From Bacillota bacterium (GTDB lineage: Bacteria > Bacillota > Sulfobacillia > JACIYH01), in contig JBFLXJ010000020.1 in NCBI GenBank assembly GCA_040757085.1, positions 1 through 43,950 of the forward strand: a DNA stretch of 43,950 nt, written 5' to 3'. The position numbers and the translations under genes are program-made. Position 1 is the stretch's first letter. The number at the start of each line of letters is the position of its first letter. The notes beneath the pieces were generated by a model. The model was not told where the DNA came from and searched no databases. It worked only from the letters and a program-made list of their open reading frames with translations. Positions 1,726 through 26,452 of the stretch are shown here, one piece after another.

Positions 1726-1947
1726 GTGAACAGCGGATCGGGCGAGTGGGTTCGGGTGCCGTGGTTCCGTTTCATCGGTATGAGCTTGTTCCTGCTGCTC
1801 ATGGCGCTGGCACCATTCGTCAGGTGGCCGGCAGGGCCTGCGTCGCTGGACTGGGGAGTCTGGATGGTGTGCTACTTCGCTTACTTGGTTCTGCTGGCCT
1901 CCTCGGTAGCCCACGTGATTCTTGCTGAAAGGAGGGAGAAGGAATGA
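1726..1947 (+). CDS. Small two-TM membrane protein, probable symporter partner
   Basis: GTG start with GGAGGT seven bases upstream; 73 residues. Two hydrophobic segments (about residues 13-32 and 42-65) with a short charged tail (ERREKE) predict two membrane helices. The stop overlaps the ATG of the following sodium:solute symporter, so the two are translationally coupled. Small two-helix proteins accompany several SSS carriers (YhdT with PanF in enterobacteria, DUF3311/DUF485 proteins elsewhere), and a role as an accessory subunit is inferred from that. I cannot assign it to one of those families by sight. Confidence 0.7.
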   Translation: MNSGSGEWVRVPWFRFIGMSLFLLLMALAPFVRWPAGPASLDWGVWMVCYFAYLVLLASSVAHVILAERREKE

Positions 1948-3422: not shown

Positions 3423-4047
3423 GAGTGTGCGGGGCGGCAGTGGGGGCTGCGGATCGAGCATGGTTGCAGCGTTTCTTCTCGGAGCAGCCCCCAGTGCCGC
3501 CCTCCTCGGGGGTGTGCCGGTGGGCTACAAGCTTGTGCCGTGCCTTCTGACTCTAGAGGCTGCTACGGCAGTGGTTGAGAAGACCGCCCGAGCGTGCGGA
3601 GCCGTGGTTCGTTGCTGGGAGGGGCGGCTGGCGTATCTGCCCGTGTGGGTTGCGCACACCCTGTGCACGGTGCGCCAGCCTTTTGGCGGAACGAGGAAGC
3701 TGCCCTTGCTGGTTGGTGCTGACGGCTGGTCCGGGGTGGTCGCGGTACTGGCCGGCGCACCGCTGTTCCAGGTCGTCGAGGAGGTCAGGGCCGAGGAGTT
3801 GCTCCTACCCGTCCGGTTTGGTCCGGCCGATTTGGAACCACTTGTCGTCAGGGAGGCTCAAGAGTACCTGATGAGCCGGTGGAGGCAGCTCTCCGAGGTG
3901 TCCGTGCTGGCCATGGACTTGCTCTACAGGCCGGTGTGGGTGTGCCTCGACGAAAGGCGCAAGGTGAGGATGGTTGACGGTCACACCGGAGAGCGCCTGT
4001 ACCACTTGGATAGGATGAGCGAGAGCCTGGTTTCGCTGTTCGTGTAG
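3403..4047 (+). CDS. Hypothetical protein, 214 aa, of unknown family
   Basis: The ATG at 3403 overlaps the end of the symporter gene and follows AAAGAGG, so the two are probably coupled. I do not recognise the family. The N-terminal 45 residues are Gly/Ala-rich and mildly hydrophobic (SMVAAFLLGAAPSAALLGG), possibly one membrane segment or a signal-anchor. The remainder is a soluble-looking alpha/beta pattern with no Cys/His clusters or nucleotide-binding loops. The C-terminal third (about 160-214) ends DGHTGERLYHLDRMSESLV. Its fixed place between transporter and catabolic enzymes suggests a role in the same pathway, for example an accessory or sensor protein. Confidence 0.65.
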   Translation: MNSTLHESVRGGSGGCGSSMVAAFLLGAAPSAALLGGVPVGYKLVPCLLTLEAATAVVEKTARACGAVVRCWEGRLAYLPVWVAHTLCTVRQPFGGTRKLPLLVGADGWSGVVAVLAGAPLFQVVEEVRAEELLLPVRFGPADLEPLVVREAQEYLMSRWRQLSEVSVLAMDLLYRPVWVCLDERRKVRMVDGHTGERLYHLDRMSESLVSLFV

Positions 4048-4099
4048 TTTGTGCCGCGGCAGGCGTGCGGCACCAGATAAGAGAGGAGGTAGGGCTGCC

Positions 4100-4855
4100 T
4101 TGCGTCTTGCGGGTTGCAAAGCGGTGATAACGGGGGCTGCAAGGGGCATCGGTCGCGCCATTGCCCATGCTTTTGCCCAAGAGGGTTGCGACCTAGCCGT
4201 TAACGCCTTGCACGAGGAGGGGTTGAGAGCCCTGGTGCAAGAGCTGGAAGGCCTGGGCGTCTCGGTGCTCCCGCTCCCCGGCGATGTGTCCGACCACGGC
4301 CTAGCCAGGGAGCACGCAGCCACGGTACAGCGGGCCTTTGGCCGGGTGGACTACCTTGTGAACAACGCGGGGGTGTCGCAACCCAAGCTGGTGGCGGATC
4401 TTTCCGAGGAGGAGTGGGACCGTACCCTGGCAATCAATTTAAAGAGCGGCTTTAACTGGACCCAGGCATTCTTGCCTCTGCTCATGGCAGCACCTGCCCC
4501 TGCGGTGGTGAACATATCTTCCATTAGTGCAAAGCACGGGGGTGGCTTCGGTACGGTCAGCAAGGCGTGCTATGCTGCTTCCAAAGCGGGTGTTTTGGGC
4601 TTCACCCGCGGCCTCGCCAAGGAGTTGGCCCCCAAGGTGCGGGTAAACGCTGTGTGTCCGGGTTTGATCGCGACGCCCATGACCGCGCGGCTCGTGGAAA
4701 GCCCCCAAGCCCCGGAAATCCTCAAGACCATCCCCCTCGGCCGTTTCGGCAGACCCGAGGAAGTGGCTGCGGTGGTGCTGTTCTTGTGCCTCCCGGAGGC
4801 CTCGTACATCACAGGGGAAGTCGTGGACGTCAACGGAGGAATGCTCATTGACTAA
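4100..4855 (+). CDS. Short-chain dehydrogenase/reductase (SDR, FabG-like)
   Basis: I chose the TTG at 4100, nine bases after GAGGAGGT; the protein is then 251 residues, the classical SDR length. The Rossmann motif TGAARGIG is at residues 11-18, the NNAG motif near 88-91, the catalytic Ser in NISSIS near 140, and the YxxxK motif as YAASK from Tyr158. These make a working NAD(P)-dependent oxidoreductase likely. The sequence is FabG-like, but the setting (transporter, M20 hydrolases, sigma-54 regulator) points to oxidation of a hydroxy acid or alcohol in catabolism rather than fatty acid synthesis. The specific substrate is not readable from sequence. Confidence 0.88.
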   Translation: MRLAGCKAVITGAARGIGRAIAHAFAQEGCDLAVNALHEEGLRALVQELEGLGVSVLPLPGDVSDHGLAREHAATVQRAFGRVDYLVNNAGVSQPKLVADLSEEEWDRTLAINLKSGFNWTQAFLPLLMAAPAPAVVNISSISAKHGGGFGTVSKACYAASKAGVLGFTRGLAKELAPKVRVNAVCPGLIATPMTARLVESPQAPEILKTIPLGRFGRPEEVAAVVLFLCLPEASYITGEVVDVNGGMLID

Positions 4856-4882
4856 GCATGGCCTAGCGGGGAGGGAAAAGTG

Positions 4883-6070
4883 ATGGCCGAACGCGTAAAC
4901 CCAGAGCGACTTCTGGATTTAGCTCGTCGCCTGGTGTGCATTCCCAGTATCAACCCCCCGGGCGAGTACGGTCGGGTGGCGGCAGAGGTAGAGCAGGCGA
5001 TGAGGGAGGCCGGTCTGGTTACCCGGGTCGTAGAGGGCGAGCCGGGTAAACCGAACGTGTTGGGAATCCTGCCGGGGTCGGACCCGGCCCGGCCGGTTTT
5101 GCTCCTCAGCGGGCACATGGACGTGGTACCCGCGGGCGACCCGGGTGCCTGGCAGGAAGACCCGTTTAGCGGTAGGGTGGTGGGGGGGTATTTGTGGGGC
5201 CGCGGGACGGCGGACATGAAGGGTGCTTTGGCGGCGCAGGTAGAGGCGGCTCGGGTGCTGGCCGCGGGCCGCCGCATGCCGGGTTCGCTAGTGGTGGCCG
5301 CGACGGTGGACGACGAGACGGCCGGGCCGATGGGGATGAAGTACCTCATCGAGTCCGGGTGGCCTTCGGGCTTGCCCTTACCCTTCCTGCACGTGCTGGG
5401 GGAAGCCAACGACCTCAATGTGACGGTGGCGTTCAAGGGCAGGGTCTGGTTCCGCATCGCGACCAGGGGCGTTGCCGCCCACGGAGGCGCCCCGGAGACG
5501 GGCGTCAACGCGGTCGAAAAGATGATTGAGCTGTTCCGGCACCTGCGGGCACTGCCGGGCCGGGAACACCCTCTTATGGGGCGGGACACTCTGAACTTGG
5601 GCACTATTCGGGGAGGGGAAAAAGTGAACATCGTCCCCGATTGCTGCGAGGCGACGTTTGACTACCGCGTTTGTTCTCCGTGCTCGGCAGCGGAAGCTGA
5701 AGCGCGCTTCCGGCAGGTTGTAGAAAAGTTGAGCCGAGAGGATTCGGAGTTCGTAGTGAGCCGGTTTGAGGTGTTCGAGAAGAGGGATCCGCTGGAAGTT
5801 GACCCCGATGGCAGGGCCGTCCGCCTGGTGCGCGAGGTGGTCAGGGATGTAACCGGGCGCGAGCCCCGTCTGCTGGGGACCCTTTCTGCGGGGGATGCGT
5901 ACTACGTGCTTCAGAAGTCCATCCCCGCCGTATGGGTGGGACCGGGCGACAGTTCCCTGTTGCACGCCGCCAACGAGCGCATAGCCGTACGCGACCTGGA
6001 AGTAGCCGCCCTCGTTTACGTCGAGCTGGCACGGCGAGCCTGTTCGGGTGGCTGGAAGAAGGATGAGTGA
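4883..6070 (+). CDS. M20 family metallo-amidohydrolase (ArgE/DapE type)
   Basis: 395 residues from the ATG at 4883 (a GTG directly before it is possible), behind GGGAGGG. It has the M20 pattern: metal ligand and nearby Asp in GHMDVVP, WGRGTADMKG with the bridging Asp, VDDETAGPMG where ADEE is usual, and a late His in SLLHAANE. A lid/dimerisation domain with GVAAHGGAPETGVNA lies in the middle. In the region where most relatives have GEPT it reads GEANDLN. The family hydrolyses N-acyl or peptide-like amide bonds with two Zn ions. It is followed by a second M20 gene overlapping by 8 bases; the two may act on related substrates. Confidence 0.87.
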   Translation: MAERVNPERLLDLARRLVCIPSINPPGEYGRVAAEVEQAMREAGLVTRVVEGEPGKPNVLGILPGSDPARPVLLLSGHMDVVPAGDPGAWQEDPFSGRVVGGYLWGRGTADMKGALAAQVEAARVLAAGRRMPGSLVVAATVDDETAGPMGMKYLIESGWPSGLPLPFLHVLGEANDLNVTVAFKGRVWFRIATRGVAAHGGAPETGVNAVEKMIELFRHLRALPGREHPLMGRDTLNLGTIRGGEKVNIVPDCCEATFDYRVCSPCSAAEAEARFRQVVEKLSREDSEFVVSRFEVFEKRDPLEVDPDGRAVRLVREVVRDVTGREPRLLGTLSAGDAYYVLQKSIPAVWVGPGDSSLLHAANERIAVRDLEVAALVYVELARRACSGGWKKDE

Positions 6071-7283
6071 CATGCCCCACCCGGTGCTGGATTGGATGTA
6101 TGCGCAGCAGCATGTCATGGTGCAAGTTCTGGCGGATCTGGTCGCCGTGGATACCGGGCCTGGTTGTGCTGACGGGATCATGGCGGCCGGCAATATCCTT
6201 CTTGAGTTGCTGAAGCCCGTCGGTGTGAAGGTTACCGAGTTCCCTTCCGATAAAGGGAGGAACCTCCTTGTCGAAGGGGGTAAGGGGACAGGGTTGCCCG
6301 TTCTCATTCTCGGCCATCTGGATACTGTTTTTCCCAGGGGGACGACTGTAGCTCGACCGTTTCGAATCGAAGGCGATCGGGCCTGCGGGCCAGGAGTGTG
6401 CGACATGAAAGGAGGCCTTGTGACGGCTGTCTTTGCTTTGCGGTATCTGGCCTTGGAAGAGGGTGACCTTCCGCCTGTGATCGCGGTGTTCAATGCGGAC
6501 GAGGAGACGGGGTCTCGTACATCGCGTAGCCTTATTGAGCAGGTGGCCCGGCGGAGCGCTGCTGCATTTGTCATGGAGCCGGCGCGGCCGGACGGATCTG
6601 TTGTGGTGAGGCGTAAGGGGGTGGCCTGGTATCGGGTGGTGGTGCGGGGACGGGCGGCCCACGCTGGTTCCGAGCCAGACAAGGGATCCAGTGCTGTGGA
6701 GGAACTGGCCCATAAAATCCTGCAGTTCAGTGGTCTCAACGATCCCTCGGTGGGTCTCACCGTCAACGTAGGCCGCGTGCTCGGGGGTACTGCGGCCAAC
6801 GTGGTGGCGGAGCACGCCGAAGCGGACGTCGACCTGAGATTCTGGCGCGAGAGTGACCTCGCCCGAGCAGCGGCGACCATGCGGGAGCTGTGTTCAAAAC
6901 CCACGATACCCGGGACGGGGTGTCAGCTGGAGGAGGTGGTTTCCCGCCCGCCTCTGGAAGTGACGCCCGAGAGTGCGGTCCTTCATTCCGTCGTACAGGA
7001 TGCGGCCAGGGATTTGGGGTTTGCTGTGGAAGGCGCGGCCACCGGGGCGTACTCCGACGGCAATATCGCCGCGAGTGTCGGTATACCTGTGGTCGATGGG
7101 ATGGGCCCCGTTGGCGGTGGCACGCACAGCGACCACGAGTACGTCGAACTGGGCACGCTTCCGCAACGGGCTGCTTTGCTGGCTCTGTCAATCAGGCGCG
7201 CGGCCCAGCAGTTGGCTCGGGGTGGGGGAGGTGATCAGGGTGGCTGGTCTACAGGATTGCCCCTCTCGCCCGCTTGCTGGTAA
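6063..7283 (+). CDS. M20 family peptidase, carboxypeptidase G2-like
   Basis: The ATG at 6063 overlaps the stop of the preceding M20 gene, giving 406 residues. Motifs: GHLDTVFP (metal ligand), GPGVCDMKGG (bridging Asp), FNADEETGS (general base and metal Glu), VMEPARPDG, RGRAAHAGSEPDKGSSA (dimer-domain His) and GGGTHSDHEYV (last metal His). This combination is that of the glutamate carboxypeptidase/CPG2 branch, which releases a C-terminal amino acid from an acyl group. The C-terminal 20 residues (after AQQLARGGG) overlap the next gene's start and are probably dispensable. It differs from the ArgE/DapE-type neighbour, so this is not a simple tandem duplication. Confidence 0.87.
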   Translation: MSDMPHPVLDWMYAQQHVMVQVLADLVAVDTGPGCADGIMAAGNILLELLKPVGVKVTEFPSDKGRNLLVEGGKGTGLPVLILGHLDTVFPRGTTVARPFRIEGDRACGPGVCDMKGGLVTAVFALRYLALEEGDLPPVIAVFNADEETGSRTSRSLIEQVARRSAAAFVMEPARPDGSVVVRRKGVAWYRVVVRGRAAHAGSEPDKGSSAVEELAHKILQFSGLNDPSVGLTVNVGRVLGGTAANVVAEHAEADVDLRFWRESDLARAAATMRELCSKPTIPGTGCQLEEVVSRPPLEVTPESAVLHSVVQDAARDLGFAVEGAATGAYSDGNIAASVGIPVVDGMGPVGGGTHSDHEYVELGTLPQRAALLALSIRRAAQQLARGGGGDQGGWSTGLPLSPACW

Positions 7284-8079
7284 GGTGGCCGTGGTGACCG
7301 GCGCCTCACGAGGGATCGGAGCCGCCATCGCGCGTGAGTTGGCCCGGCGCGGCGCCGCGGTGACGGTTGTGTCACGCACTGCGGAAACGCTCCAGCCGGT
7401 GGCGCAGATGATCCAGGACGAGGGGGGTACCTGCCTGCCGCTGGCGGCGGACGTGAGGGATACTGCTCAGGTGAGAAAGCTGGTCGATTCCACCTATGGG
7501 GAATTCGGGCGCGTCGAAATCCTGGTGAACAATGCCGGCTTATACCCCGTCACGCCCTTCCTGGATCTCACCGATGAGGAGTGGGACGAGGTGGTGGCCA
7601 CCAACTTGCGCGGCCCGTTCGTGTGCTCACGAGAATTCGCACGCCGGATGGTGGCCGATCCGCGTTCCCGGCGTGGCACGGCGGACGGCGCAACCCCCCA
7701 ACCCTGGGGTCGCATCATCAACATAAGTTCAACATCCAGCCTGCTCGCGCGCCCGGGCATCGCCCACTATTCCTCTTCGAAGGCGGGCGTCAACGGCCTC
7801 ACAAGGGTGCTGGCCATAGAACTGGCCCCTTACGGCATCACAGTGAACTCGGTTTGCCCCGGTCTCATAGCCACCGAGACCATCGTGGCTCAGGCTCAGG
7901 ATCCCGGTCGTCAGGCAGAGCACCGTGCCAAGCTGGCGCGCATACCTCAGGGTCGATGCGGTCAGCCCCAGGAAGTTGCAGCAGTGGTTGCCTTCCTGGC
8001 CTCCGACGAAGCGGCGTATATCACGGGAGCTGTCATCGTCGTGGACGGCGGCTACACCTTGGGCATTCCCGGTTATTAG
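7240..8079 (+). CDS. Short-chain dehydrogenase/reductase (second SDR)
   Basis: The GTG at 7240 lies eight bases after GGAGG inside the end of the preceding gene (44-base overlap); 279 residues. TGASRGIG is the nucleotide loop, NNAG begins near residue 97, the active-site Ser lies in NISSTSS, and the catalytic Tyr177/Lys181 are in HYSSSKAG. An insertion of about 15 residues (RRGTADGATPQPWG) before the Ser strand lengthens it relative to the SDR at 4100. NPG-type loop reads CPGLIATE. A classical NAD(P)-dependent oxidoreductase, probably of the same catabolic pathway. It is the last enzyme gene before the regulator. Confidence 0.88.
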   Translation: MAGLQDCPSRPLAGKVAVVTGASRGIGAAIARELARRGAAVTVVSRTAETLQPVAQMIQDEGGTCLPLAADVRDTAQVRKLVDSTYGEFGRVEILVNNAGLYPVTPFLDLTDEEWDEVVATNLRGPFVCSREFARRMVADPRSRRGTADGATPQPWGRIINISSTSSLLARPGIAHYSSSKAGVNGLTRVLAIELAPYGITVNSVCPGLIATETIVAQAQDPGRQAEHRAKLARIPQGRCGQPQEVAAVVAFLASDEAAYITGAVIVVDGGYTLGIPGY

Positions 8080-8206
8080 TCCCTCCGTGGCCCATCGCGT
8101 TTCTCCCGGGGTACACCCTGGGCCGGTTCCGGCGTGGCAGGATCGTATGCCGGGGGCATCCAAAATGCATAGTAGGAGCGAAGGGTGTCAGAGGGGCAGC
8201 GCACAG

Positions 8207-10330
8207 ATGTTGGGTGACGGACGGGTGTGCCGTGTGGTCGTGGTGGCGAGCGACCGGCTGGTGTTCGAGGTTTTCCGCCGGCAGTTGCTGGACTTTTTCG
8301 GGTCTGCCATCGACATCGAAGAGGTGGTCCTGGAGGAATGGGAACCAAAGCCGCTGCAAGCCCGCATCGTGGTTGCGTCCTGTAACACGGTTGCCGACCG
8401 TATAAGGGCCTACCTGGCCCCCGATGCGCAGTTACTGGTTGCGTGCCGAGCCATAGACCCTGCGAACCTGGAAGAACTGTTGCGGCTTCCCCCTAATACG
8501 CGCGTGTTGCTGGTTAGCAACTTCATGGAGACGGCCCTCGACACTATCCAGATGCTGAAGAGGCATGGACTCACGCACCTCGAATGGAAGCCCTACGTGC
8601 CCGGTGCCGGCAGTATGCGAGAGGAGGCTGATGTCGCTGTCACGTGTGGCCTCCCTCACCTGGTTCCCCGCGGCGTGTCTCGGGTGGTAAACATCGGCGT
8701 GCGCAAGCTGGATGTCTCCACCCTCGTCGCCCTCCAGTTGGCCGCCGGCGTGCCGGTCGAGAGGATAAACTACATTTCCATAGGCTACCTGGATGAGATA
8801 GTGAAGACCACGCGCAAGTACTTGCAGGAGGCCGAGCGTGCGGCCCGCCTCGGGGCCCAGCTTGAAGCGATCCTGGACAGCATAGGGATAGGCGTTGTGG
8901 GGGCAGACCTCCGCGGGCTGGTCACTTTCTGTAACAGCGAAGCTCATGCTATGCTGGGGGCGAAGCCGGGGGAGACGGTGGGACGCGCCGCACGAGAAGT
9001 GCTTCCGCAGGTTGATTGGGAGGCAGAGGGGTGGAAGGAAGGCTCCGGTGTCCAGGTGGTTGAGGCAGCGGGGAACCGCTTGGCGGTTAGCGTGCTGCCT
9101 GTCACGCGGAACGGCGAGATGTTCGGTAGCGTTGCGATCCTCCGGCGGGTGACGGAGGTTCAGTCCACCGAGGCAGAAGTCCGGTGGCGTCTGACTAGGT
9201 CAGGGTACCTGGCAAAATACCGGTTTGAGGACATCATCGGTATGAGCGACGTTATGGCCAGGCTCAAGAGTCAGGCCATGCAGCTTGCGGCCAGCGAGTT
9301 GCCCGTCCTTATTGTCGGCGAAACCGGTACTGGGAAAGAGTTGTTTGCGCACGCTATTCACCAGGCATCACGGCGTCGTGACGGACCTTTCGTGGCCATC
9401 AACTTTGCTGCTGTCCCCGAGTCGCTGGTGGAAAGTGAGCTGTTTGGCTATGAAGAGGGTGCGTTCACGGGGGCGCGGAAGGGCGGAAAACCTGGGCTCT
9501 TCGAGCAGGCGCACCGAGGAACCCTTTTCCTGGATGAGGTTGCAGAAGCACCTCCGTCTATTCAGGCGCGGCTGCTCCGGGTGCTCGAGGAAAAGCGCGT
9601 CCTGCGCGTTGGGGGCAGCCGCATGGTTCCCGTAGATGTACGTATCATCGCGGCCACAAACCGTGATCTGGTGGAGTTGATGCGGAGTGGCCGATTTCGG
9701 CCGGACCTGTACTTCCGACTTCATGTGCTGCCACTGCACATCCCGCCACTTCGCAGCCGGCCACAGGACATACCGGACCTGATCCGGCACTTTATGAGCG
9801 AGAAAGGATACCGCTTCACCCTTGACGCCAGCGCACTGGATATCCTGATGTCTTACCACTGGCCCGGAAACGTTCGCGAACTGGAGAACCTCCTCGCTTA
9901 CTTGGCTGTGACTTGCGGTGCAGGAATCGTGTCAGCTTCGCACTTGCGCGCTCTTCTGCTTCCGGACCACAGCCGACCGGAGCCTGCGGGAGGCCTCGAC
10001 GCTGCTTACCCCGTAGAAGAGCTGGCTAGCCGTCTCGCAGCCTCGGGGTGCGATCGACTGGCAGTGGAGGTGTTGATTCGGTTGCACTCCGATTCACAAG
10101 TGGGACGCCGTTCGAGCCGACGCCGCATCTTGAGCCAATTGAAACAAAGGGGGTATGATGTGAGCGAAGGGCGGCTGCGTTCGCTCCTTCAGTTGTTTGC
10201 CCAGTATGGCTGCGTACAGCCAGGTCCCACCCGGCGGGGAACGGCCATCACGCCCAAAGGTTACAAGCTGTTACGCTTATTGGACAGTGAGGTGCGGGAG
10301 CCAGAGAGTCTCACGGCGTGGAGGGCGTGA
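8207..10330 (+). CDS. Sigma-54-dependent transcriptional activator with PrpR_N-like and PAS-like regions
   Basis: About 707 residues from ATG 8207 (GAGGGG upstream); an in-frame ATG at 8165 has no good ribosome site. Residues 1-190 have the alternating pattern of a PrpR_N effector-sensing domain. About 220-330 is a PAS-like module (ILDSIGIGVVGADLRGLVTF). The AAA+ core follows: Walker A GETGTGKE at 371-378, sigma-54 contact loop GAFTGA at 418-423, Walker B FLDEV, and R-finger region DVRIIAATNRDL. The C-terminus lacks a recognisable Fis-type helix-turn-helix; about 600-700 instead resembles a winged-helix pattern. It should activate the RpoN promoter at 1632 in response to the pathway substrate. 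Confidence 0.9.
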   Translation: MLGDGRVCRVVVVASDRLVFEVFRRQLLDFFGSAIDIEEVVLEEWEPKPLQARIVVASCNTVADRIRAYLAPDAQLLVACRAIDPANLEELLRLPPNTRVLLVSNFMETALDTIQMLKRHGLTHLEWKPYVPGAGSMREEADVAVTCGLPHLVPRGVSRVVNIGVRKLDVSTLVALQLAAGVPVERINYISIGYLDEIVKTTRKYLQEAERAARLGAQLEAILDSIGIGVVGADLRGLVTFCNSEAHAMLGAKPGETVGRAAREVLPQVDWEAEGWKEGSGVQVVEAAGNRLAVSVLPVTRNGEMFGSVAILRRVTEVQSTEAEVRWRLTRSGYLAKYRFEDIIGMSDVMARLKSQAMQLAASELPVLIVGETGTGKELFAHAIHQASRRRDGPFVAINFAAVPESLVESELFGYEEGAFTGARKGGKPGLFEQAHRGTLFLDEVAEAPPSIQARLLRVLEEKRVLRVGGSRMVPVDVRIIAATNRDLVELMRSGRFRPDLYFRLHVLPLHIPPLRSRPQDIPDLIRHFMSEKGYRFTLDASALDILMSYHWPGNVRELENLLAYLAVTCGAGIVSASHLRALLLPDHSRPEPAGGLDAAYPVEELASRLAASGCDRLAVEVLIRLHSDSQVGRRSSRRRILSQLKQRGYDVSEGRLRSLLQLFAQYGCVQPGPTRRGTAITPKGYKLLRLLDSEVREPESLTAWRA

Positions 10331-10893
10331 CGGCATCGTGTTCCGGTGGAACGGACCGAGGCACCTCCATGTTTCCGTAATAGTCCATGAGAGGCACTGG
10401 CTACTCACAGTTGGCCTGTTCAACAACTCTGGATCCACTTTTGGGCAGGACGGAGCTATGGCTGTGATCTTGGGCGTCGGCTCGGGCGGAGCACGCCGAA
10501 GCAACCGACCATGCCGGTCTCGGGGGACGTGGCGCCTATAGCGGCCTCGGCGTAGTAGCCTGAGTCGCCTGGGCCTCAAGGGAAACGTGAAGTGTGGGCT
10601 GCGTGCGATTGGAGGACGCATTGAAGAGGTCGAGGGGCTGGCTATCGATTCGACAACGGACGTTGTCCGACGGACGGGAGCACGCGCTTCGGGGATCGGT
10701 GTTCTCCCGTAGGCGGAACCTGACGGGCGTGTTGCCCTCCGGGCTTCCGTTGGAAGACGTCTTGGGGCGGGGCTGCTGTTGGACGTGCGGGTGCCCGACC
10801 TGCCGGACAACGTCACGGGGGACCAGCGGCGGGTTGCAAGCGGTGCAGTCCGGTGTTACTCTAGTACCGTCAGCCCAGTCAGCTTTGGGGGAG
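10331..10893. other. Non-coding stretch between activator and toxin/antitoxin genes
   Basis: No gene is supported. Short open frames exist, including one running into the antitoxin, but they have no recognisable domain. A segment at 10740-10840 could be read as ...LLLDVRVPDLPDN..., possibly a remnant. No sigma-54 site and no clear terminator were found. Confidence 0.4.
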
Positions 10894-10899
10894 ATGGGT

Positions 10900-11097
10900 A
10901 TGCGGCGTAGGGTGCCGCGCTTGGTGGTGGAGGACGGCAAGGCAACTGCTGTGATCCTCGATATTGAAGTCTATCGGGAGATGCTCGAGCGCCTTGAAGA
11001 CCTTGAGGATTTGAGGATGTTGGAAGAGATTCGGAAGAGGCCGTTGGACTTGCAGAGCCTGGAGGACTTCTTGGCGGAGCACGCCTCGGATGTATGA
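10900..11097 (+). CDS. Antitoxin of a RelE/ParE-type toxin-antitoxin pair
   Basis: ATG 10900 with GGGGGAG about eight bases upstream; 65 residues. The pattern (VPRLVVEDGKATAVILDIEVYREMLERLEDLEDLRML) follows Phd/YefM- and RelB-type antitoxins: a short beta-strand DNA-binding part with a variant of the 'VILS..EY..L' motif, then an acidic coiled helix that wraps the toxin. It overlaps the toxin gene by 8 bases. It would neutralise the toxin and repress the operon. Confidence 0.78.
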   Translation: MRRRVPRLVVEDGKATAVILDIEVYREMLERLEDLEDLRMLEEIRKRPLDLQSLEDFLAEHASDV

Positions 11098-11350
11098 GGT
11101 TTTTCTGGAGAGGACGGCGCGGAAAGACCTGGAGGCCCTGCCAGCACGGGTCTTCCGCCAGGTGATTGCCTGCGTCCGCGGTCTGGCCCATAATCCCAGG
11201 CCTCCTGGGGCGAGGAAGATAGTCGGATCGGACAACGCCTGGCGGGTGCGCGTGGGAGACTACAGGGTGGTCTACGAGGTCGATGATGCGGCCTTTCGGG
11301 TCATTGTGTACCGGGTAAGGCACCGGAAGGAAGCGTACCGGGGCCTGTGA
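11090..11350 (+). CDS. RelE/ParE superfamily toxin
   Basis: 86 residues from ATG 11090. The family pattern is clear: MYEVFLERTARKDLEALP at the start, a central basic loop (NPRPPGARKI), and the C-terminal strands NAWRVRVGDYRVVYEVDD and VIVYRVRHRKEAY. Conserved Arg residues in RVRVGDYRVVY and the final RHRKEAY are those of RelE-like mRNA interferases, so RelE is more likely than gyrase-poisoning ParE. The gene overlaps the antitoxin upstream. The pair marks the boundary between the catabolic cluster and the IS-rich debris, consistent with an acquired segment. Confidence 0.85.
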   Translation: MYEVFLERTARKDLEALPARVFRQVIACVRGLAHNPRPPGARKIVGSDNAWRVRVGDYRVVYEVDDAAFRVIVYRVRHRKEAYRGL

Positions 11351-11397
11351 TGGGTTGCCCATGCGGTAATGGCAGTTCCCTTGGGTCGTCTGGCAAC

Positions 11398-13286: not shown

Positions 13287-13368
13287 GGTAAGCGTCAAAC
13301 TGTACCCACCTGGCTTGCTGCCCGGAGTTGAAGGATAATCTCCCCGAAGTATGAATCGGGGAGGGTTT

Positions 13369-13713
13369 GTGGTGACCAGGGCCGAGCGGGAGAAAGAGCG
13401 ACAGGAATGGGAGACCCGCATCGCGGAGTTCAGGGCGAGCGGACAGAGCGTGAGTGAGTGGTGCGCTGCCAACGGCATAAAGCCTGGCCGGTTATGGTAC
13501 CGGTTGCGTCAGGAGAGACGCCAAGGGAAGGTCGACAGGGGAAGCGGTGTGGCGCCGATATGGCTGCAGGCAACGGTGACCGGCCCGGCTTGCACCGAAG
13601 AACAAGACAACAAGAGGCTCATCCGGATAGGCGAGGCCAGCGTAGAGGTGAGGGCCGGGTTTGATCCCGAGTTGCTTTCCGGCTGGGTGCGGGTACTGTT
13701 GGCCATATGCTGA
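13369..13713 (+). CDS. tnpA: IS66 TnpA (OrfA), helix-turn-helix accessory protein
   Basis: 114 residues from GTG 13369 (GGGAGGG upstream). The N-terminal helix-turn-helix reads ...WETRIAEFRASGQSVSEWCA-ANGIKPGRLWYRLR, the standard IS66 OrfA motif. The C-terminus (IRIGEASVEVRAGFDPELL, then VLLAIC) is typical of the family. The gene appears intact and overlaps the following tnpB start by 7 bases. Confidence 0.85.
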   Translation: MVTRAEREKERQEWETRIAEFRASGQSVSEWCAANGIKPGRLWYRLRQERRQGKVDRGSGVAPIWLQATVTGPACTEEQDNKRLIRIGEASVEVRAGFDPELLSGWVRVLLAIC

Positions 13714-14065
13714 GCGATAGTCCCGTGGACCGGGTTTACCTTGCCTGTGGCCGACCGACCTGCGGAAGTCCATCGACGGGTTGGCAGTGCTCGTGAAGGA
13801 ATCCTTCGATCTTGACCCTTTCTCGAGCAGCCTCTTTGTCTTCTGCAACCGGCAGAGGGACAAGGTCAAGATCTTGAGGTGGGACCACAACGGGTTCTGG
13901 CTGTACTACCGCCGCCTGGAGCGGGGCAAGTTCCAGTGGCCGCCGAGAACAGGCGAGAACATCCCCGTGGCGATCGATTACCGTCAGCTGCGCTGGCTCC
14001 TTGACGGGCTGGCCTTGAAACAGCCCAAGGCGCACCCGGAGGTGAAAGCAAGAACGATCGTGTGA
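13707..14065 (+). pseudogene. tnpB: IS66 TnpB (Orf2), one-base frameshift
   Basis: ATG 13707 opens MLSDSPVDRVYLACG and then the frame is lost near 13749: one base is missing between TGTGG and CCGACCGACC. In the restored frame the IS66 Orf2 signature follows: PTDLRKSIDGLAVLV, LFVFCNRQRDKVKILRWD, GFWLYYRRLERGKFQWP, and a C-terminal LDGLALK. The protein would be about 119 residues. A programmed frameshift is unlikely because no slippery run is present. Confidence 0.8.
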
Positions 14066-14124
14066 GACTGCATATTCCGTCCAAATTAGGAGGAATTCGG
14101 CGATAGATGTAGAATAACACAGAT

Positions 14125-14388
14125 ATGGACAATTCATCCTCCGGCATGACCATAGAAGAGCTAAGAGAACGCTGCGCTCTGCTCGAACAAGAAAACGCTG
14201 AGCTGACAGCCAAACTGAAGTGGTTCATGGAGCAGTTCCGCTTGATGAAGCACCGTCAGTTCGGGGCCTCCAGCGAACGGACGGTTCCCGGCCAGGAGGA
14301 GTTTTCGTTCTTCAACGAGGCGGAAAGAGAAGCCCGGCCTGAGGAGCCGGAGCCACCGGTGGAGACGATCAACCTGTTGGACAGTTGA
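14125..14388 (+). pseudogene. tnpC: IS66 TnpC transposase, N-terminal remnant
   Basis: From ATG 14125: a leucine-zipper-like helix (EELRERCALLEQENAELTAK) followed by the family signature KHRQFGASSERT and FFNEAEREA. These are the first 80 or so residues of IS66 transposases, which normally exceed 450 residues and carry the DDE catalytic domain. The frame stops in foreign sequence where panB begins. Confidence 0.8.
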
Positions 14389-14684
14389 TCACTGAAGCTG
14401 TCAAGGTACCAACTATCGGGATAGGCGCGGGGCCCCATTGCGACGGGCAGGTGCTGGTCCTCCATGACATGCTGGGCCTGTTCGAACGTTTTGTGCCAAA
14501 GTTCGTTAAACGTTACGCGCGGCTAGCCGATGAAGCGCGGGAGGCTCTTTCTCGTTTTGCGTTGGAGGTTAGGGAGGGTCAGTTCCCGGCGGCAGAACAC
14601 TGCTACCCGATGAAACCGGAAGTAGCAACCGAGGTGCGTGCCCGGCTGGTTCAGGCCGGCCACCTAACGGAAGTGCCCATGTGA
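14385..14684 (+). pseudogene. panB: PanB (3-methyl-2-oxobutanoate hydroxymethyltransferase), C-terminal remnant
   Basis: About 99 residues match the C-terminal third of PanB: ITEAVKVPTIGIGAG, CDGQVLVLHDMLGLF, PKFVKRYA, and GQFPAAEHCYPM. The enzyme (about 270 residues) makes ketopantoate from 2-oxoisovalerate and methylene-tetrahydrofolate. The N-terminal two thirds, with the Mg-binding acidic residues, have been replaced by the truncated IS66. The in-frame TTG at 14385 is an artefact of the junction. panE follows after 15 bases, so a panB-panE operon was cut here. Confidence 0.82.
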
Positions 14685-14699
14685 GATGAGGTGAACGTT

Positions 14700-15653
14700 G
14701 TGGCCGTGCCAGTATTGAGAGTCGGCGTTGTTGGTGCTGGGGCCATGGGGTCTCTGTTTGGGGGGTACTTGGCTGCTGCGGGTCATGAGGTGTGGCTCGT
14801 AGACAAGTGGGCCGAGCACGTCAGCGCGATAACCGAGCATGGACTGCTTATCATGGAACCGTCCGGTGAGGAGAGGATTGTGCGGGTGCGGGCCACTACC
14901 GAGGTCGGCGAGGTAGGTCAGTGCGATCTCGTACTGGTTTTTGTGAAATCGTACCACACCGCAGCGGTCGCGAGCGAACTCACCCCTATCGTCGGTTCCG
15001 GCACTGTGGTGCTTACTCTTCAAAATGGATTGGGCAACGTGGAGGCTTTGGCTGAGGGTGTTCCGAGAAACCAGATCTTGGCGGGCACCACAGGGCAGGG
15101 TGCGAATGTGCTGGGACCGGGGCGTGTCCACCACGCTGGCGTTGGTGAAACAGTGATCGGTGAGTTGGACGGCCGCGTAACTGAACGTCTTCGGCTGGTC
15201 AGCCAAGTCTTCAACGAGGCTGGGCTGCCCGCTTCGACCAGCACGAATATCGAGGGGATAATGTGGGGCAAGCTGCTGGTCAACATCGCCATAAATCCCT
15301 TGACGGCGATCTTACGGGTACGTAACGGCCAGCTGCTCGATGTGCCCGCGGCAATGGAGGTGATGAAAGAGGCGGTCTCGGAAGGATTGGAAGTAGCTCG
15401 CCGCGCCGGAGTGCACATCCCGTACAGTGATCCTTGGTTAAGGGTGTTGGAGGTAGCTCGGCTCACCGCAGCCAACCGTTCGTCTATGATGCAGGATGTG
15501 GAGGCTGGCCGAAGGACTGAGATTGACTTCATCAACGGAGCAGTGGTCAGGGAAGGGGTGCGCCTCGGGGTGATCACTCCCGTCAACCTAACCCTGACGC
15601 GGCTAGTGCATTGCCTAGAAACCACGGGGACGCGTATTTTTAATCAACCGTGA
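14700..15653 (+). CDS. panE: Ketopantoate reductase family protein (2-dehydropantoate 2-reductase)
   Basis: 317 residues from GTG 14700, behind ATGAGGTG. The Rossmann loop VGAGAMGSLFGGYLA is at the start, GNVEALAEGVP and ILAGTTGQGANVLGPG follow, and the C-terminal domain contains the family motif MWGKLLVNIAINPLTAILR (catalytic Lys) and the late SSMMQDVEAGRRTEIDFING. These are standard for PanE/ApbA, the NADPH-dependent reduction of ketopantoate to pantoate. Because panB next to it is broken and the surroundings look catabolic, this copy may act on another 2-keto acid or run in the oxidative direction; that is inference. Confidence 0.88.
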   Translation: MAVPVLRVGVVGAGAMGSLFGGYLAAAGHEVWLVDKWAEHVSAITEHGLLIMEPSGEERIVRVRATTEVGEVGQCDLVLVFVKSYHTAAVASELTPIVGSGTVVLTLQNGLGNVEALAEGVPRNQILAGTTGQGANVLGPGRVHHAGVGETVIGELDGRVTERLRLVSQVFNEAGLPASTSTNIEGIMWGKLLVNIAINPLTAILRVRNGQLLDVPAAMEVMKEAVSEGLEVARRAGVHIPYSDPWLRVLEVARLTAANRSSMMQDVEAGRRTEIDFINGAVVREGVRLGVITPVNLTLTRLVHCLETTGTRIFNQP

Positions 15654-15740: not shown

Positions 15741-17129
15741 ATGTCGGAGAAAGAGAAAAAGCCCTTGCAAGAGGACTTTGAAGCCAGGGAACGCACGACG
15801 GCCGACGTGAAAGAGCCGCCGGCGGGGTGGAAGCAAATCCTGGCTGCGTTCGGCCCTAGCTTCGTGCTTGCTGGAGCCACCGTGGGTTCAGGCGAGATTA
15901 TTGCTACGCCTATCCTGGGGGCTAAGGTCGGTCTCGTCATGCTGTGGGCCATAATTGCTAGTTGCCTCATCAAGCTGCCGGTGCAAGAGCAATTTGGAAG
16001 GTATGCCGTTTACTCAGGCAAGAGCTTGCTTACTATCCTTGATGAGTTACCTGGGCCCCGGCTCCGTGCTTCGTGGGCTGTCTGGTGGGTCCTGTTTCTG
16101 ATGACCTTCTTGTTGATCATAATGGCGGGTATCGTTGGCGTAGTTGGCCTCGCCTTACGAGGACTGTTTGGTGTTGGGAGTGCGAACTTGTGGGGCTTGA
16201 TAGCCGGGGTGGTAGGCCTGGCCCTGATATTCCGGGGTTTGTACACCGACTTGCAAAGGGTGAGGCTGGTCATGGTGGTAGCCTTCTCTGCTATCACCGT
16301 GCTGCTGGCATTCATAGTCTTGCCTTTCACCCCATACGCTCCTTCAGGGCAAGATCTTCTCCGCGGGTTGGCCCTGCATTTCCCCAAGGAAGGATGGGCG
16401 GTAGCCCTGGCTGTATTTGGCATGACCGGCATAACGGCAAATGAAATGATTACCTACACCTACTGGGTACTTGGGAAGGGTTACTCTGCATGGTCCGGAC
16501 CTGTGGGCTCACCGAACTGGTTGCACCGGGCGCGAGGCTGGATCCGCGTGATGCACTGGGACTTGGTGTGCGCGGCGATCGTCTACACCATCACTACGGT
16601 GGCCTTCTACGTGTTGGGCGCTGCCGTGCTGGCAAAGCTCGGAACGATCCCGGCTGGTTTCAAGGTCGTTGACCAGCTGGCGGCGATGTACACGAAGACG
16701 GTCGGCGAGTGGGCCAGGGTGCTTTTCATGATCGCTGCATTCGCTATCCTCTACAGCACCTACATTGTAAACACTGCGGGCTTTGGGCGAGCGTTTCCTG
16801 ATGTGCTCGCGCGCCTACGCCTGATTAAGCTGGACACGCCCGAGGCGTATTTGTTCTGGCGTCGCTTCTTTACCGTCGCGAGTGCAGCATGCATGTTCGT
16901 CCTTTATTACCTCGTCCCTAGGCCGACGGTGTTGATCATAACGGGTGGTATGATTCTGGGGTTGTCTCTTCCTCTGGCGGCCCTTGTGGCTCTCCTGCTG
17001 GATTCCAAGTTGCGGCGCGAGCAGGTTGATCTGGCTCAGCCGTCCTGGCTTCGGGCGTTGTTGTGGGTGGCTTCGCTCGGGATTTGGGTGTTTACGATCT
17101 GGGGCTACGCGACGGGTGCCATCAAGTAG
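15741..17129 (+). CDS. Nramp-fold transporter lacking the canonical metal-site motifs
   Basis: 462 residues from ATG 15741 (AAAGGAGG upstream), with about 11 hydrophobic segments and a charged 35-residue N-terminus. The first helix reads GPSFVLAGATVGSGEIIATP: the Nramp pattern 'GPG....a.iDPGN' is recognisable, but DPGN has become TVGSG. The sixth-helix MPHN motif is also absent; the matching area is FGMTGITANEMITYTY. Both motifs supply the metal ligands in true Nramp carriers. It is therefore probably a relative with another substrate, perhaps an organic acid. A 15-bp hairpin follows the stop codon. Confidence 0.8.
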   Translation: MSEKEKKPLQEDFEARERTTADVKEPPAGWKQILAAFGPSFVLAGATVGSGEIIATPILGAKVGLVMLWAIIASCLIKLPVQEQFGRYAVYSGKSLLTILDELPGPRLRASWAVWWVLFLMTFLLIIMAGIVGVVGLALRGLFGVGSANLWGLIAGVVGLALIFRGLYTDLQRVRLVMVVAFSAITVLLAFIVLPFTPYAPSGQDLLRGLALHFPKEGWAVALAVFGMTGITANEMITYTYWVLGKGYSAWSGPVGSPNWLHRARGWIRVMHWDLVCAAIVYTITTVAFYVLGAAVLAKLGTIPAGFKVVDQLAAMYTKTVGEWARVLFMIAAFAILYSTYIVNTAGFGRAFPDVLARLRLIKLDTPEAYLFWRRFFTVASAACMFVLYYLVPRPTVLIITGGMILGLSLPLAALVALLLDSKLRREQVDLAQPSWLRALLWVASLGIWVFTIWGYATGAIK

Positions 17130-17136
17130 GGCTAAC

Positions 17137-17180
17137 ACGGGCAGGGAGAAGACGTGTCTGCGGGCCTTCTCCCTGCCCGT
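17137..17180 (+). terminator. 15-bp perfect hairpin after the Nramp-fold gene
   Basis: ACGGGCAGGGAGAAG (17137-17151) pairs perfectly with CTTCTCCCTGCCCGT (17166-17180), leaving a 14-base loop. Only a weak T stretch (GTCTTTC) follows, so it may be an attenuator or mRNA-stabilising stem rather than a strong terminator. It separates the transporter from the LarA-like gene 50 bases downstream. Confidence 0.6.
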
Positions 17181-17229
17181 ACCGTCTTTCGCCATATGGC
17201 AACGGGCCTGTGCGGGGGAGGGAGAAATC

Positions 17230-18504
17230 ATGCGGTTTCCCAAGGTGCTGACGGTAAAGCAAAAGTTCAGTAGCTTTGCTCTCCCTGACGTCCGCGAAGC
17301 GGTGCGGAGCGAGGTTCGGCGTGTGCTGCCCCACACCCGGATAAGGCCCGACAACAGCGTGGCGGTTACGGTCGGCAGCCGGGGCATCGCAAATTTGGCG
17401 ACGATTGTAAGGGGGATTGTTGATGAGCTGCTCAGTTATGGTTGTAGGCCGTTTTTGGTGCCGTGCATGGGGAGCCATGGCGGCGCCACGGCGGAAGGTC
17501 AGAGAAAAGTGTTAGAAGAGTACGGGATCACGCAGTCCTCGATGGGTGTCCCGATCGAATCAGCCATGGACGTGGGGGAAGTTGCCCGTACCGAAGAGGG
17601 TTTAAGGGTGTTTGTCGACAAGAACGCCCTCGGGGCAGACCATATTGTCGTTTTCAACCGGGTGAAGCCTCACACCGATTTTCGCGGCACGATAGAAAGC
17701 GGCCTGATGAAGATGATGACCATCGGGCTTGGCAAACACAGTGGAGCGCAGTATTACCATCGGGCGGCTGTGACCTACGGGGGAAGTAGGGTCATCAGGG
17801 CGGTGGGGAGGGCGGTGCTGAGGAACTGTCCGGTGGCGTTTGGTCTGGCGGTGGTCGAAGACGCTTACGACAACACTGCGCTTGTGGAAGCGATTCTACC
17901 GGACGACATCGAGAGACGAGAGGCTGAGTTACTTGCACAGGCTAGGGAAATGATGGCCAAGCTGCCGTTTAAGAAGATCGATGTGCTTATCATAGACCGG
18001 ATGGGGAAAAACATTAGCGGCACCGGGATGGACACTAACGTGATCGGTCGCATCCACAACATTTACGAACCGGAACCGGAGTGGCCCAAGATAACCAGGA
18101 TAGTGGTAAGGGATCTCACGGACGAAACCTTGGGGAATGCGACCGGGGTCGGACTCGCCGACTTTGTAACGAAGCGGTTGGCGGACAAGATAGACTGGCA
18201 CGTGACGTATACGAATTGCCTCACAGGGCTGGTGGTTGAAAAAGCACGTCTTCCAATGGTTTGCCCAACGGATCGCGATGCGGTGGAGGCAGCTCTGGGG
18301 ACTGTAGGCCTGGTGGAGCCAGAGCAGGCGAGACTGGTTTGGATTCGCGATACTCTCAGCCTACACGAAGTAGCAGTTTCGGTAGCGTTCTTGCCGGAAA
18401 TAGAAGATCGTGATGATCTGTTGGTTATGAGCGAGCCGTTTGACTTACCTTTTGACGAAGTAGGGAATCTCCGAGACATGTGGCACGGGTATGACCCTCG
18501 GTAA
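17230..18504 (+). CDS. LarA-like protein (DUF2088, lactate racemase domain)
   Basis: 424 residues from ATG 17230 (GGGAGGGAG upstream). It has the LarA-type core: VPCMGSHGGATAEGQ (His83), NRVKPHTDFRG (His148), ESGLMKM (Lys161) and GLGKHSGAQYYH (His170/His177). In LarA comparable residues hold the nickel-pincer cofactor and abstract the alpha proton. This protein belongs to a divergent branch whose reactions are mostly untested; 2-hydroxy-acid epimerisation is a reasonable guess. No larB, larC or larE is nearby, so the cofactor would have to come from elsewhere. It is the last gene of the apparent catabolic region. Confidence 0.75.
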   Translation: MRFPKVLTVKQKFSSFALPDVREAVRSEVRRVLPHTRIRPDNSVAVTVGSRGIANLATIVRGIVDELLSYGCRPFLVPCMGSHGGATAEGQRKVLEEYGITQSSMGVPIESAMDVGEVARTEEGLRVFVDKNALGADHIVVFNRVKPHTDFRGTIESGLMKMMTIGLGKHSGAQYYHRAAVTYGGSRVIRAVGRAVLRNCPVAFGLAVVEDAYDNTALVEAILPDDIERREAELLAQAREMMAKLPFKKIDVLIIDRMGKNISGTGMDTNVIGRIHNIYEPEPEWPKITRIVVRDLTDETLGNATGVGLADFVTKRLADKIDWHVTYTNCLTGLVVEKARLPMVCPTDRDAVEAALGTVGLVEPEQARLVWIRDTLSLHEVAVSVAFLPEIEDRDDLLVMSEPFDLPFDEVGNLRDMWHGYDPR

Positions 18505-24188: not shown

Positions 24189-24602
24189 GTGAAGATCGGG
24201 CTGAAGGAAGAGCGCTGTTCGGGATGTCTGGTATGCGAGATGGCGTGTTCGCTCAACCTGTTCGGAGAACTCAACCCCAAGAAGTCGGCCATCGTGATCA
24301 GGGGGCAGTTTCCCGAGCCGGGGCGCTACAGCGTCCTGGTTTGCGACCAGTGCGGCGAATGCGCCAAAGTGTGCCCGGTGGAATGCATCACCCTGGGGGA
24401 CAACGGCGCCTACCGGATTGACCGGGAGGCCTGCACCGGGTGTCTGGCTTGCGTGGAGGCATGTCCAACGGGGGCCATGCGCACCCACCCCGACGACGAC
24501 GTCCCCTTCAAGTGCACCCTTTGTGGCGACTGCATAAGGTTCTGCCCGCGGAGTGCGGTATACGACCTCGACGGTGAGATTGCCGAACGGAGGTGGTACT
24601 GA
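24189..24602 (+). CDS. 4Fe-4S ferredoxin-type electron transfer subunit of AOR
   Basis: 137 residues from GTG 24189. Four cysteine groups bind up to four [4Fe-4S] clusters: CSGCLVCEMAC near the start, CDQCGECAKVCP, CTGCLACVEACP and CTLCGDCIRFCP. The pattern is that of HycB/AorA-like ferredoxins encoded in front of tungsten aldehyde oxidoreductases. It would take electrons from the AOR catalytic subunit. The stop overlaps the ATG of the AOR gene (24602), so both are made together. Confidence 0.88.
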   Translation: MKIGLKEERCSGCLVCEMACSLNLFGELNPKKSAIVIRGQFPEPGRYSVLVCDQCGECAKVCPVECITLGDNGAYRIDREACTGCLACVEACPTGAMRTHPDDDVPFKCTLCGDCIRFCPRSAVYDLDGEIAERRWY

Positions 24603-26452
24603 TGCTGTACGGTTACGGCGGGCACGTCCTGCGGGTAGACCTTTCTTCCCGCTCGGTGACCAAAGAACCGCTATCGGAGAGCCTGGCCCGCGGCTGGCTA
24701 GGGGGACGGGGCTTCGTGTCCCGTACCCTCTGGGAAGAGCTACCACCAGGAACCGATCCCCTGGGGCCCGGCAACCTGGTCATCATGGCCTCCGGTCCCC
24801 TGGCGGGGTGCTTCCTGCCGGGCTCGGGCAAGATCCACTTCGGCACCAAATCTCCCGCCACGGGGGGATACGGAGACTCCAACATGGGGGGCCATCTGGC
24901 CGCCGAACTCAAGCATGCCGGCTACGACATGGTCATCTTCCGCGGCCAGGCCAGCTCGCCCGTCATGCTGGTGATCGATGACGACCGGGTGGAGATCCGG
25001 GATGCCTCCCGCTACTGGGGCATGGGATGCCTCAAGACCGAGGAGGCTCTGAAGAACGACCTGGGTGAGGATTTCCAGATCGCCACCATAGGACCGGCGG
25101 CGGAGAAGCTGGTACGCTACGCCTGCATAAGCCACGATTTCGGCCGCCAGGCGGGCCGCACCGGGGTGGGCACGGTCCTGGGGAGCAAGAAGGTCAAGGC
25201 CGTCGCGGTGCGGGGATCCCGGGCCATCCCCCTGGCTCGGCCCCGGCAGGCCTGGGAAAAGGGCAAGGAAATGTTCCAGGCCTGCTTCTCCAATCCCGGG
25301 TTGGCTCAGTGGACACCCCAGGGCACGGCCGGTGTCACCGATTGGGTCAACGAGGTAGGTGCATTTCCCACCCGCAACTTCTCCAGCTCGTACTTCGAGG
25401 CGTACAGGCAGATCAACGGGCAGGCCCTCCTCGACAGGCTGGTACGCACTCACAAGGGATGCCACGGATGCCCCACTCCCTGCGGCAAATACTCCTTCAC
25501 CCGGTCGCGGATGGGGGAGGCCTGGGTGGAGGGACCCGAGTACGAGACCATCGCCCTGGTGGGAGGGAACTGTGGCCTCGATAGCATCGAAGATATCGCT
25601 TATCTGAACCACGTGCTGGACGACCTGGGCATCGACACCATATCGGGCGGCGCCGTGATCGGGTTTGCCATCGAGTGTTATCAGAAGGGGATTCTTTCCC
25701 GCGAGGCGGTGGGGAGGGAGCTTTCCTTCGGTGATCCCGAGGCGGTCCTGTACCTGGCCCAAAAGATCGCGGCCCGCGACGGGATTGGGGACCTGCTCGC
25801 TGACGGGGTCAAGAGGGCAGCCGGGGAACTGGGTCCGGAGGCAGAGCGCATCGCTCCCCACGTAAAGGGGCTGGAACTGTCCGGATACGAGTCCCGGTAC
25901 GCGCCGGCCATGATGCTGGCCTACATGACCTGCGACATCGGTGCCCACCACAACCGGGCCTGGGCCATCACCTACGACGTACAGGTAGGGCAGGACAAGG
26001 TGGAAGGGAAGGCCCAGCGAGTGATCCAGTTGCAGCACATCCGGCCCCTGTTCGACGCCCTGGGTCTGTGCCGTCTGCAGTGGGTGGAGATTGGGTTTGA
26101 CCTCAAGCACTACGCCGAGGTGTTCCCCCTGGTCACAGGGTGGGACTACTCGTGGGATGACCTCCTGCGCATTTCCGAGAAGATCTGGAACCAGAACCGT
26201 TGCTTCAATGTCCGGGAGATCCCCGGATTTGGGCGCAGTTGGGATTACCCACCCTCCCGTGTCTGGGAGGAACCCGTCCCCACGGGGCCGGCGCAGGGCA
26301 AGTTTATCCCCCGCCAGCGGCTGGACGACCTGCTGGACGATTATTACCGGCTGCGGGGATGGTCGCCCGACGGGCTGCCTACCCGCAGGAAGCTACACGA
26401 ACTCGGGCTGGACGACGTGGCCAACACCCTGGCCGACAAGCTACCCGAGTAG
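24602..26452 (+). CDS. Aldehyde:ferredoxin oxidoreductase family tungstopterin enzyme
   Basis: 616 residues from ATG 24602, eight bases after GGAGG. The N-terminal domain shows the AOR hallmarks LGGRGFVSRTLWEE, MASGPLAGCFLPGSGK and SPATGGYGDSNMGGHLAAEL, which surround the bis-pterin. A [4Fe-4S] cluster is held by Cys287, Cys290 and Cys294 (CHGCPTPC) and Cys490 (LGLCR). The family oxidises aldehydes to acids, or reduces acids, with ferredoxin; related enzymes act on other substrates. The coupled ferredoxin and the MoaD-like gene just downstream fit a complete working set. Length is normal for the family. Confidence 0.92.
   Translation: MLYGYGGHVLRVDLSSRSVTKEPLSESLARGWLGGRGFVSRTLWEELPPGTDPLGPGNLVIMASGPLAGCFLPGSGKIHFGTKSPATGGYGDSNMGGHLAAELKHAGYDMVIFRGQASSPVMLVIDDDRVEIRDASRYWGMGCLKTEEALKNDLGEDFQIATIGPAAEKLVRYACISHDFGRQAGRTGVGTVLGSKKVKAVAVRGSRAIPLARPRQAWEKGKEMFQACFSNPGLAQWTPQGTAGVTDWVNEVGAFPTRNFSSSYFEAYRQINGQALLDRLVRTHKGCHGCPTPCGKYSFTRSRMGEAWVEGPEYETIALVGGNCGLDSIEDIAYLNHVLDDLGIDTISGGAVIGFAIECYQKGILSREAVGRELSFGDPEAVLYLAQKIAARDGIGDLLADGVKRAAGELGPEAERIAPHVKGLELSGYESRYAPAMMLAYMTCDIGAHHNRAWAITYDVQVGQDKVEGKAQRVIQLQHIRPLFDALGLCRLQWVEIGFDLKHYAEVFPLVTGWDYSWDDLLRISEKIWNQNRCFNVREIPGFGRSWDYPPSRVWEEPVPTGPAQGKFIPRQRLDDLLDDYYRLRGWSPDGLPTRRKLHELGLDDVANTLADKLPE

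Follow-up and report, generated by a model that had tools for sequence, protein, structure and literature searches.

PxpT of C. glutamicum, a member of the Nramp-like family PF01566, was reported in 2026 to be essential for growth on 5-oxoproline, with complementation of the mutant phenotype, and is 50% identical to B. subtilis YcsG; metal transport by PxpT was not excluded by the authors (PMC13274462). YcsG itself is reported as an Mn importer (PMC10448178), and this branch of PF01566 thus has published support for both a metal and an organic substrate, the organic one being backed by complementation. Homologues encoded in pxpA-transporter-hydrolyase loci are of a type with the motif IGPGF and lack the aspartate of the first transmembrane helix (TM1), and the matching gene order suggests that PxpT and YcsG are themselves of this type. 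Cellier's orphan outgroup of Slc11/Nramp also consists of PF01566 proteins without the Slc11 metal and proton residues and is described as distinct from the Nramp-related Mg transporters (NRMT) (PMC10606218, PMC9606685). NRMT proteins retain the TM1 aspartate, with the signature DxxG-TxxA/T (PMC8806188). In the amino-acid carriers AdiC and LAT1, the carboxylate of the substrate is bound via the backbone amides of a helix-breaking GSG in TM1 (PMC5877779). Within the open-licence literature we found no paper linking Nramp-like carriers to LarA or to sugar-acid loci.

Here we analyse a PF01566 transporter gene encoded on a 43,950-nucleotide stretch of DNA from a Bacillota bacterium (contig JBFLXJ010000020.1), hereafter the window, the features of which are collected in Table 1. 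The gene has an ATG start and a good ribosome-binding site, and its product matches PF01566 with 58.4 bits (curated cut-off 29.8) and the NCBIfam model NF037982, 'Nramp family divalent metal transporter', with 113 bits (cut-off 50). An AlphaFold2 model computed with 59 family members as input has a pLDDT of 92.7 and a pTM of 0.91, and aligns by VIA-align to DraNramp (6c3i) with Z 40 over 384 residues and to EleNRMT with Z 37-38; Nramp-family entries take up the first 22 rows, and amino-acid carriers of the APC type follow at Z 26-28. By sequence, the closest PDB match is EleNRMT (7QIA), and identity to the canonical Nramp/MntH protein DraNramp is 16%. The model confidence and structural scores together make the Nramp fold secure, bearing out an earlier note on this DNA made from the sequence alone.

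Table 1. Coordinates of the features discussed, in positions of the window
Feature	Position	Strand	Evidence
PanB C-terminal remnant (~14376-14621), 5' side cut by incomplete IS66-type element	13351-14630		
PanE/ketopantoate reductase-family gene, upstream of transporter	14691..15653	+	TIGR00745, 308 bits (cut-off 141)
Transporter, GSGE-type PF01566, 462 aa, Nramp fold, predicted organic-acid carrier	15741..17129	+	Pfam, AlphaFold2, VIA-align, tree
TM1 motif G49-S50-G51-E52, replacing DPGN	15885..15896	+	Sequence, profile and family alignments; invariant in 89/89
TM6 motif T232-A233-N234-E235, replacing MPHN	16434..16445	+	Family alignment; register +/- ~1 residue
Perfect 15-bp hairpin without T-run, between transporter and isomerase genes	17137..17180	+	RNA fold
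Nickel-pincer nucleotide isomerase, group 22 (LarA superfamily, NF052515)	17230..18504	+	536 bits (equivalog cut-off 400)

Both DPGN and MPHN are absent from the window transporter, as the earlier note had seen, but the strings that it gave as their replacements, TVGSG and ITANE, are shifted. Sequence alignments to EleNRMT and human NRAMP1/2, a canonical-Nramp profile alignment and the family alignment all set DPGN opposite residues 49-52 (GSGE), while the family alignment sets MPHN opposite residues 232-235 (TANE), where a gap in some alignments leaves the TM6 register uncertain by about one residue; the AlphaFold2 model breaks the TM6 helix at residues 229-232. Nine residues (G49, S50, G51, E52, K78, T229, G230, E235 and D274) do not vary across the 89 family sequences, a conservation of the motifs that was partly selected for in sequences from the genome-contig scan, the patterns of which contained GSGE or the TM6 motif; the nine family sequences found without a motif search all agree in keeping Glu52 and Glu235. 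The position of the TM1 aspartate is glycine in every family member (Gly49 here), canonical Nramps have methionine at position 232, where the 89 sequences carry Gly, Ala, Ser or Thr, and the TM6 consensus is GADE or GGDE compared with TANE in the window transporter, which also lacks the DxxG and TxxA/T signature of NRMT. The invariance of GSGE and Glu235 over the 89 sequences rules out decay of a degenerate gene as the cause, and, as judged from these alignments, the motif change is family-wide, neither chance nor local decay. Conserved acidic ligands at the equivalent positions, which the earlier note held to be at odds with its reading, are in part what we find: the site still has carboxylates, since Glu52 and Glu235 are invariant at or beside the ligand positions, but it has neither the Asp nor the Met ligand of Nramp. 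Binding of a cation by these two glutamates in the GSGE family could thus occur.

An unrooted maximum-likelihood tree of 87 rows, 31 of them from the GSGE family, resolves that family as one clade (support 100/96) and places the window transporter outside the canonical Nramp (100/99) and NRMT (100/97) clades. Canonical Nramps, Mg-type NRMT and a small DAGS group cluster together (98/94) and are the only rows with the TM1 aspartate, and the pxp-linked IGPGF type forms another separate clade (100/100) that does not include the window transporter; the positions of some long branches in the wider tree are uncertain. Within the GSGE clade, for which the genome collection yields 552 relatives or more, the window transporter belongs to a clade of its own (100/100) with homologues from loci L034, L035, L036 and L020/L029. 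The other PF01566 protein of the source genome (contig C17) is of the NRMT type. The tree and the motifs exclude membership of the window transporter in canonical Nramp or NRMT and make it a PF01566 member outside Slc11 and NRMT, as are the proteins of Cellier's orphan outgroup. The earlier note had spoken of a transporter that lost both metal-ligand motifs, a polarity that the tree does not bear out: the TM1 aspartate is confined to one PF01566 clade and GSGE characterises another, and in the absence of a root the term 'lost' is not supported. A single gain of the aspartate is the simpler reading of the sequences than a loss in the GSGE branch and would fit an outgroup without the Slc11 metal and proton residues, as described by Cellier (PMC9606685, PMC10606218); the motifs of the GSGE branch were probably never metal motifs.

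The isomerase gene downstream of the transporter, already recognised in the earlier note as LarA-like, is a genuine group-22 member by its score and is conserved in the clade. It adjoins the transporter gene in four of the five clade members, downstream in the window, L029 and L036 and upstream in L034; L029 and L036 are near-syntenic, which leaves about three independent cases of adjacency, each with a chance probability of about 0.3% by our own rough estimate (two to four isomerase copies per genome). Group-22 isomerases occur in 86 of 398 genomes of the phylum and a close homologue of the window transporter in only one other, indicating that the pairing does not merely reflect abundance. 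In L029 the genes run acetaldehyde dehydrogenase, 4-hydroxy-2-oxovalerate aldolase, IlvD-type dehydratase, transporter, isomerase, two ORFs (unassigned/regulatory), IlvD and GlcD, an order that we infer to suit dehydration of a polyhydroxy acid followed by cleavage to pyruvate and acetaldehyde. No isomerase adjoins the transporter gene in the fifth member, L035 (53% identity), which instead lies beside corrinoid and URO-D-type methyltransferase genes (5860-11353 of that locus), which suggests a methylated substrate. The source genome carries the isomerase's cofactor genes larB, larC and larE on contig C2 (54%, 32-39% and 48% identity, respectively), and its second group-22 isomerase, on contig C6 (L259 5119-7717), is directly followed by a GlcD-type oxidase. 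A sequence comparison with LarA structures gave no match.

PanE, the other neighbour on which the earlier note had drawn, is a real gene of that family, but its association with the transporter is not conserved and makes for weak evidence: among genomes bearing the clade, four (G138, G446, G447 and W01) gave no PanE match and a fifth (G445) a distant one (28%). An intact PanB is encoded on contig C23 of the source genome, and PanB recurs only in L036. With PanE mostly absent and PanB so restricted, the two genes upstream of the transporter are weakened as a sign of pantoate transport. The hairpin between the transporter and isomerase genes lies in a segment (17125-17229, 105 nt) with a fold energy of -53.4 kcal/mol (z -4.07), and its core occurs only here in the source genome. 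It may uncouple expression of the two genes, the co-transcription of which, given this unique element between them, is predicted as likely only. Elsewhere in the window, positions 1944-10330 hold an apparently separate cluster of a sodium:solute symporter, two SDRs, two M20 peptidases and a sigma-54 activator, and positions 24189-26452 a ferredoxin-type 4Fe-4S protein followed by an aldehyde ferredoxin oxidoreductase-family protein.

Other group-22 isomerases often lie near genes of organic-acid catabolism and uptake. Within three genes of the isomerase at 20 other loci of the phylum we counted 7 oxidases of the glycolate (GlcD) type, 6 IlvD/EDD dehydratases, the TRAP subunits DctM (6) and DctP (6), and aldolases, tallies that rest on simple longest-ORF gene calls. 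Directly upstream of the isomerase, an annotated Sporomusa plasmid encodes a tripartite tricarboxylate importer and an annotated Marinovum plasmid a TRAP importer (a single record each), and the window transporter holds the same gene position as these importers. Relatives of the transporter adjoin UxaA, mandelate racemase-type enzymes, acid-sugar kinase, PdxA and mannonate dehydratase. A Rubrobacter acid-catabolism cluster of ~21 kb combines two LarA-type genes, UxaA, LutABC-type genes, an acid-sugar kinase and PdxA with two 'Nramp' proteins, the only importers annotated there. None of the hydroxy-acid enzyme genes was found within ~4 kb of 20 canonical or other Nramp-type loci. The wider GSGE family has mixed neighbours including sugar-isomerase-like, Gfo/Idh/MocA, amidohydrolase and glucuronyl-esterase-like proteins, one relative adjoins a catechol siderophore cluster, and the isomerase is present in only 4 of the 88 family loci surveyed. 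These mixed neighbours leave a single substrate for the whole family unsupported and restrict any substrate proposal to the window's clade.

Side observations concern other PF01566 types and catabolic neighbours. A Rubrobacter plasmid cluster (L184 8571-20935) encodes two different PF01566 proteins, the one adjoining LutABC-type lactate oxidation genes being a candidate lactate carrier. Another (L241 2442-6257) has GTAD in TM1; its operon also encodes CoA-transferase subunits and a thiolase, a hint that the substrate may be a keto acid. A second type near pxpA genes (IGPGT/TTVVPYN; L136, L137, L140 and L142) is distinct from the IGPGF type.

We posit, with a probability of roughly 0.68, that the window transporter and its immediate clade import a 2-hydroxy or sugar acid; transport itself, substrate class, direction and coupling are all predictions. 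An organic substrate is best supported because the isomerase adjoins the gene in four of five clade members and organic-acid importers occupy the same place at related loci. The transporter would be a secondary carrier with the LeuT fold, from a non-metal PF01566 branch, that works by alternating access and imports the acid coupled to H+ or Na+; the adjoining isomerase would act at C2 of the imported stereoisomer to give the form that dehydratases or oxidases accept. By analogy with AdiC and LAT1, the substrate carboxylate is suggested to be held on the TM1 GSG turn by backbone amides, and the coupling ion to be carried by Glu52 or Glu235. Of the elements of this proposal, the analysis establishes the fold, the clade and the family-wide motifs. 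The conserved adjacency to a group-22 isomerase, the hydroxy-acid genes around that isomerase, their lack at other Nramp-type loci, the lar genes in the genome and the failure to find a metal riboswitch all count towards this function, as does the requirement for PxpT, likewise from a branch without the TM1 aspartate, during growth on 5-oxoproline (PMC13274462). Weighing against it are the absence of the isomerase from L035 and from most family loci, the mixed wider neighbours with their siderophore-adjacent case, the capacity of the two glutamates to bind a cation, the Mn report for YcsG (PMC10448178) and the hairpin between the genes. The organic substrate proposed in the earlier note is thereby retained as the best-supported prediction, on the strength of the isomerase and the importer analogues and no longer of PanE.

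A nickel-pincer enzyme next to a protein with the fold of metal carriers raises the question of whether the transporter instead imports Ni2+ for the cofactor of the adjoining isomerase, with Glu52 and Glu235 as possible ligands. The lar locus of lactobacilli includes a nickel transporter. We consider this reading improbable: a group-22 isomerase is missing from the vicinity of 84 of the 88 family loci surveyed, larB, larC and larE lie on another contig without this transporter, the second isomerase copy adjoins GlcD instead, other group-22 loci carry organic-acid importers rather than metal carriers in this position, and neither the Asp nor the Met ligand of Nramp is present.

A carrier of Mn, Fe or Mg with a site rebuilt around the two glutamates is similarly doubtful. 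The close structural match to DraNramp, the invariant acidic residues at the motif positions, the divalent-metal name given to the family by NCBI and the Mn import reported for YcsG, from another branch without the TM1 aspartate (PMC10448178), speak for it, but the aspartate is replaced by glycine and the methionine by small residues throughout the family, the clade is separate from all aspartate-bearing types, a search for a metal riboswitch found none, the source genome already has an NRMT-type protein, and the neighbours are carbon-catabolic. Transport of a metal-hydroxy-acid chelate, in which acid and divalent cation would both belong to the substrate, would fit an Nramp fold with acidic residues in a hydroxy-acid context. 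Some citrate carriers transport metal-citrate complexes. TRAP systems in the same gene position, as far as known, take free acids, and we rate the chelate lowest among the alternatives. Import of a 2-hydroxy or sugar acid remains our preferred reading.

Extended beyond the window's clade, the same evidence permits a broader and decidedly tentative proposal, which we hold somewhat below even odds: that a large and widespread clade annotated as 'Nramp' consists of H+- or Na+-coupled carriers of 2-hydroxy and sugar acids binding the carboxylate on the TM1 GSG turn, and that metal transport arose later within organic-anion carriers by gain of the TM1 aspartate. Because NF037982 names the clade as divalent metal transporters, many genomes probably carry a wrong functional assignment. 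Carriage of hydroxy acids, if true, would supply the missing importers for nickel-pincer isomerase pathways and would make the origin of Nramp metal selectivity testable by comparing the GSGE, IGPGF, DAGG and DPGN types on one fold.

Set against the described systems, the window transporter has partial counterparts only. Contrary to the earlier note, an organic substrate in PF01566 would not be wholly new, because PxpT, from another branch without the TM1 aspartate, had already been tied to 5-oxoproline uptake (PMC13274462). The PxpT/YcsG branch resembles the window transporter in its family, its missing aspartate and its linkage to catabolic enzymes (the 5-oxoprolinase pxp loci), but is distant and separate, has no Glu at the Asn position, and differs in neighbours and substrate. 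Cellier's orphan outgroup resembles the GSGE clade in its published description, in which we found neither a function nor a gene context. Canonical Nramp/MntH shares the fold but not the sites, since the window transporter is without DPGN and MPH and sits in a separate clade, and NRMT shares both the fold and an altered site but keeps the TM1 aspartate, where the window family has GSGE and falls outside the NRMT clade. The GSG of the window transporter lies in the TM1 region of the fold corresponding to that of AdiC and LAT1; a profile comparison of the GSGE family with AdiC/CadB gave no match. The TRAP and tripartite tricarboxylate importers that adjoin group-22 isomerases have the same neighbourhood position and presumed role as the window transporter, but belong to unrelated protein families and, unlike it, work with a binding protein.
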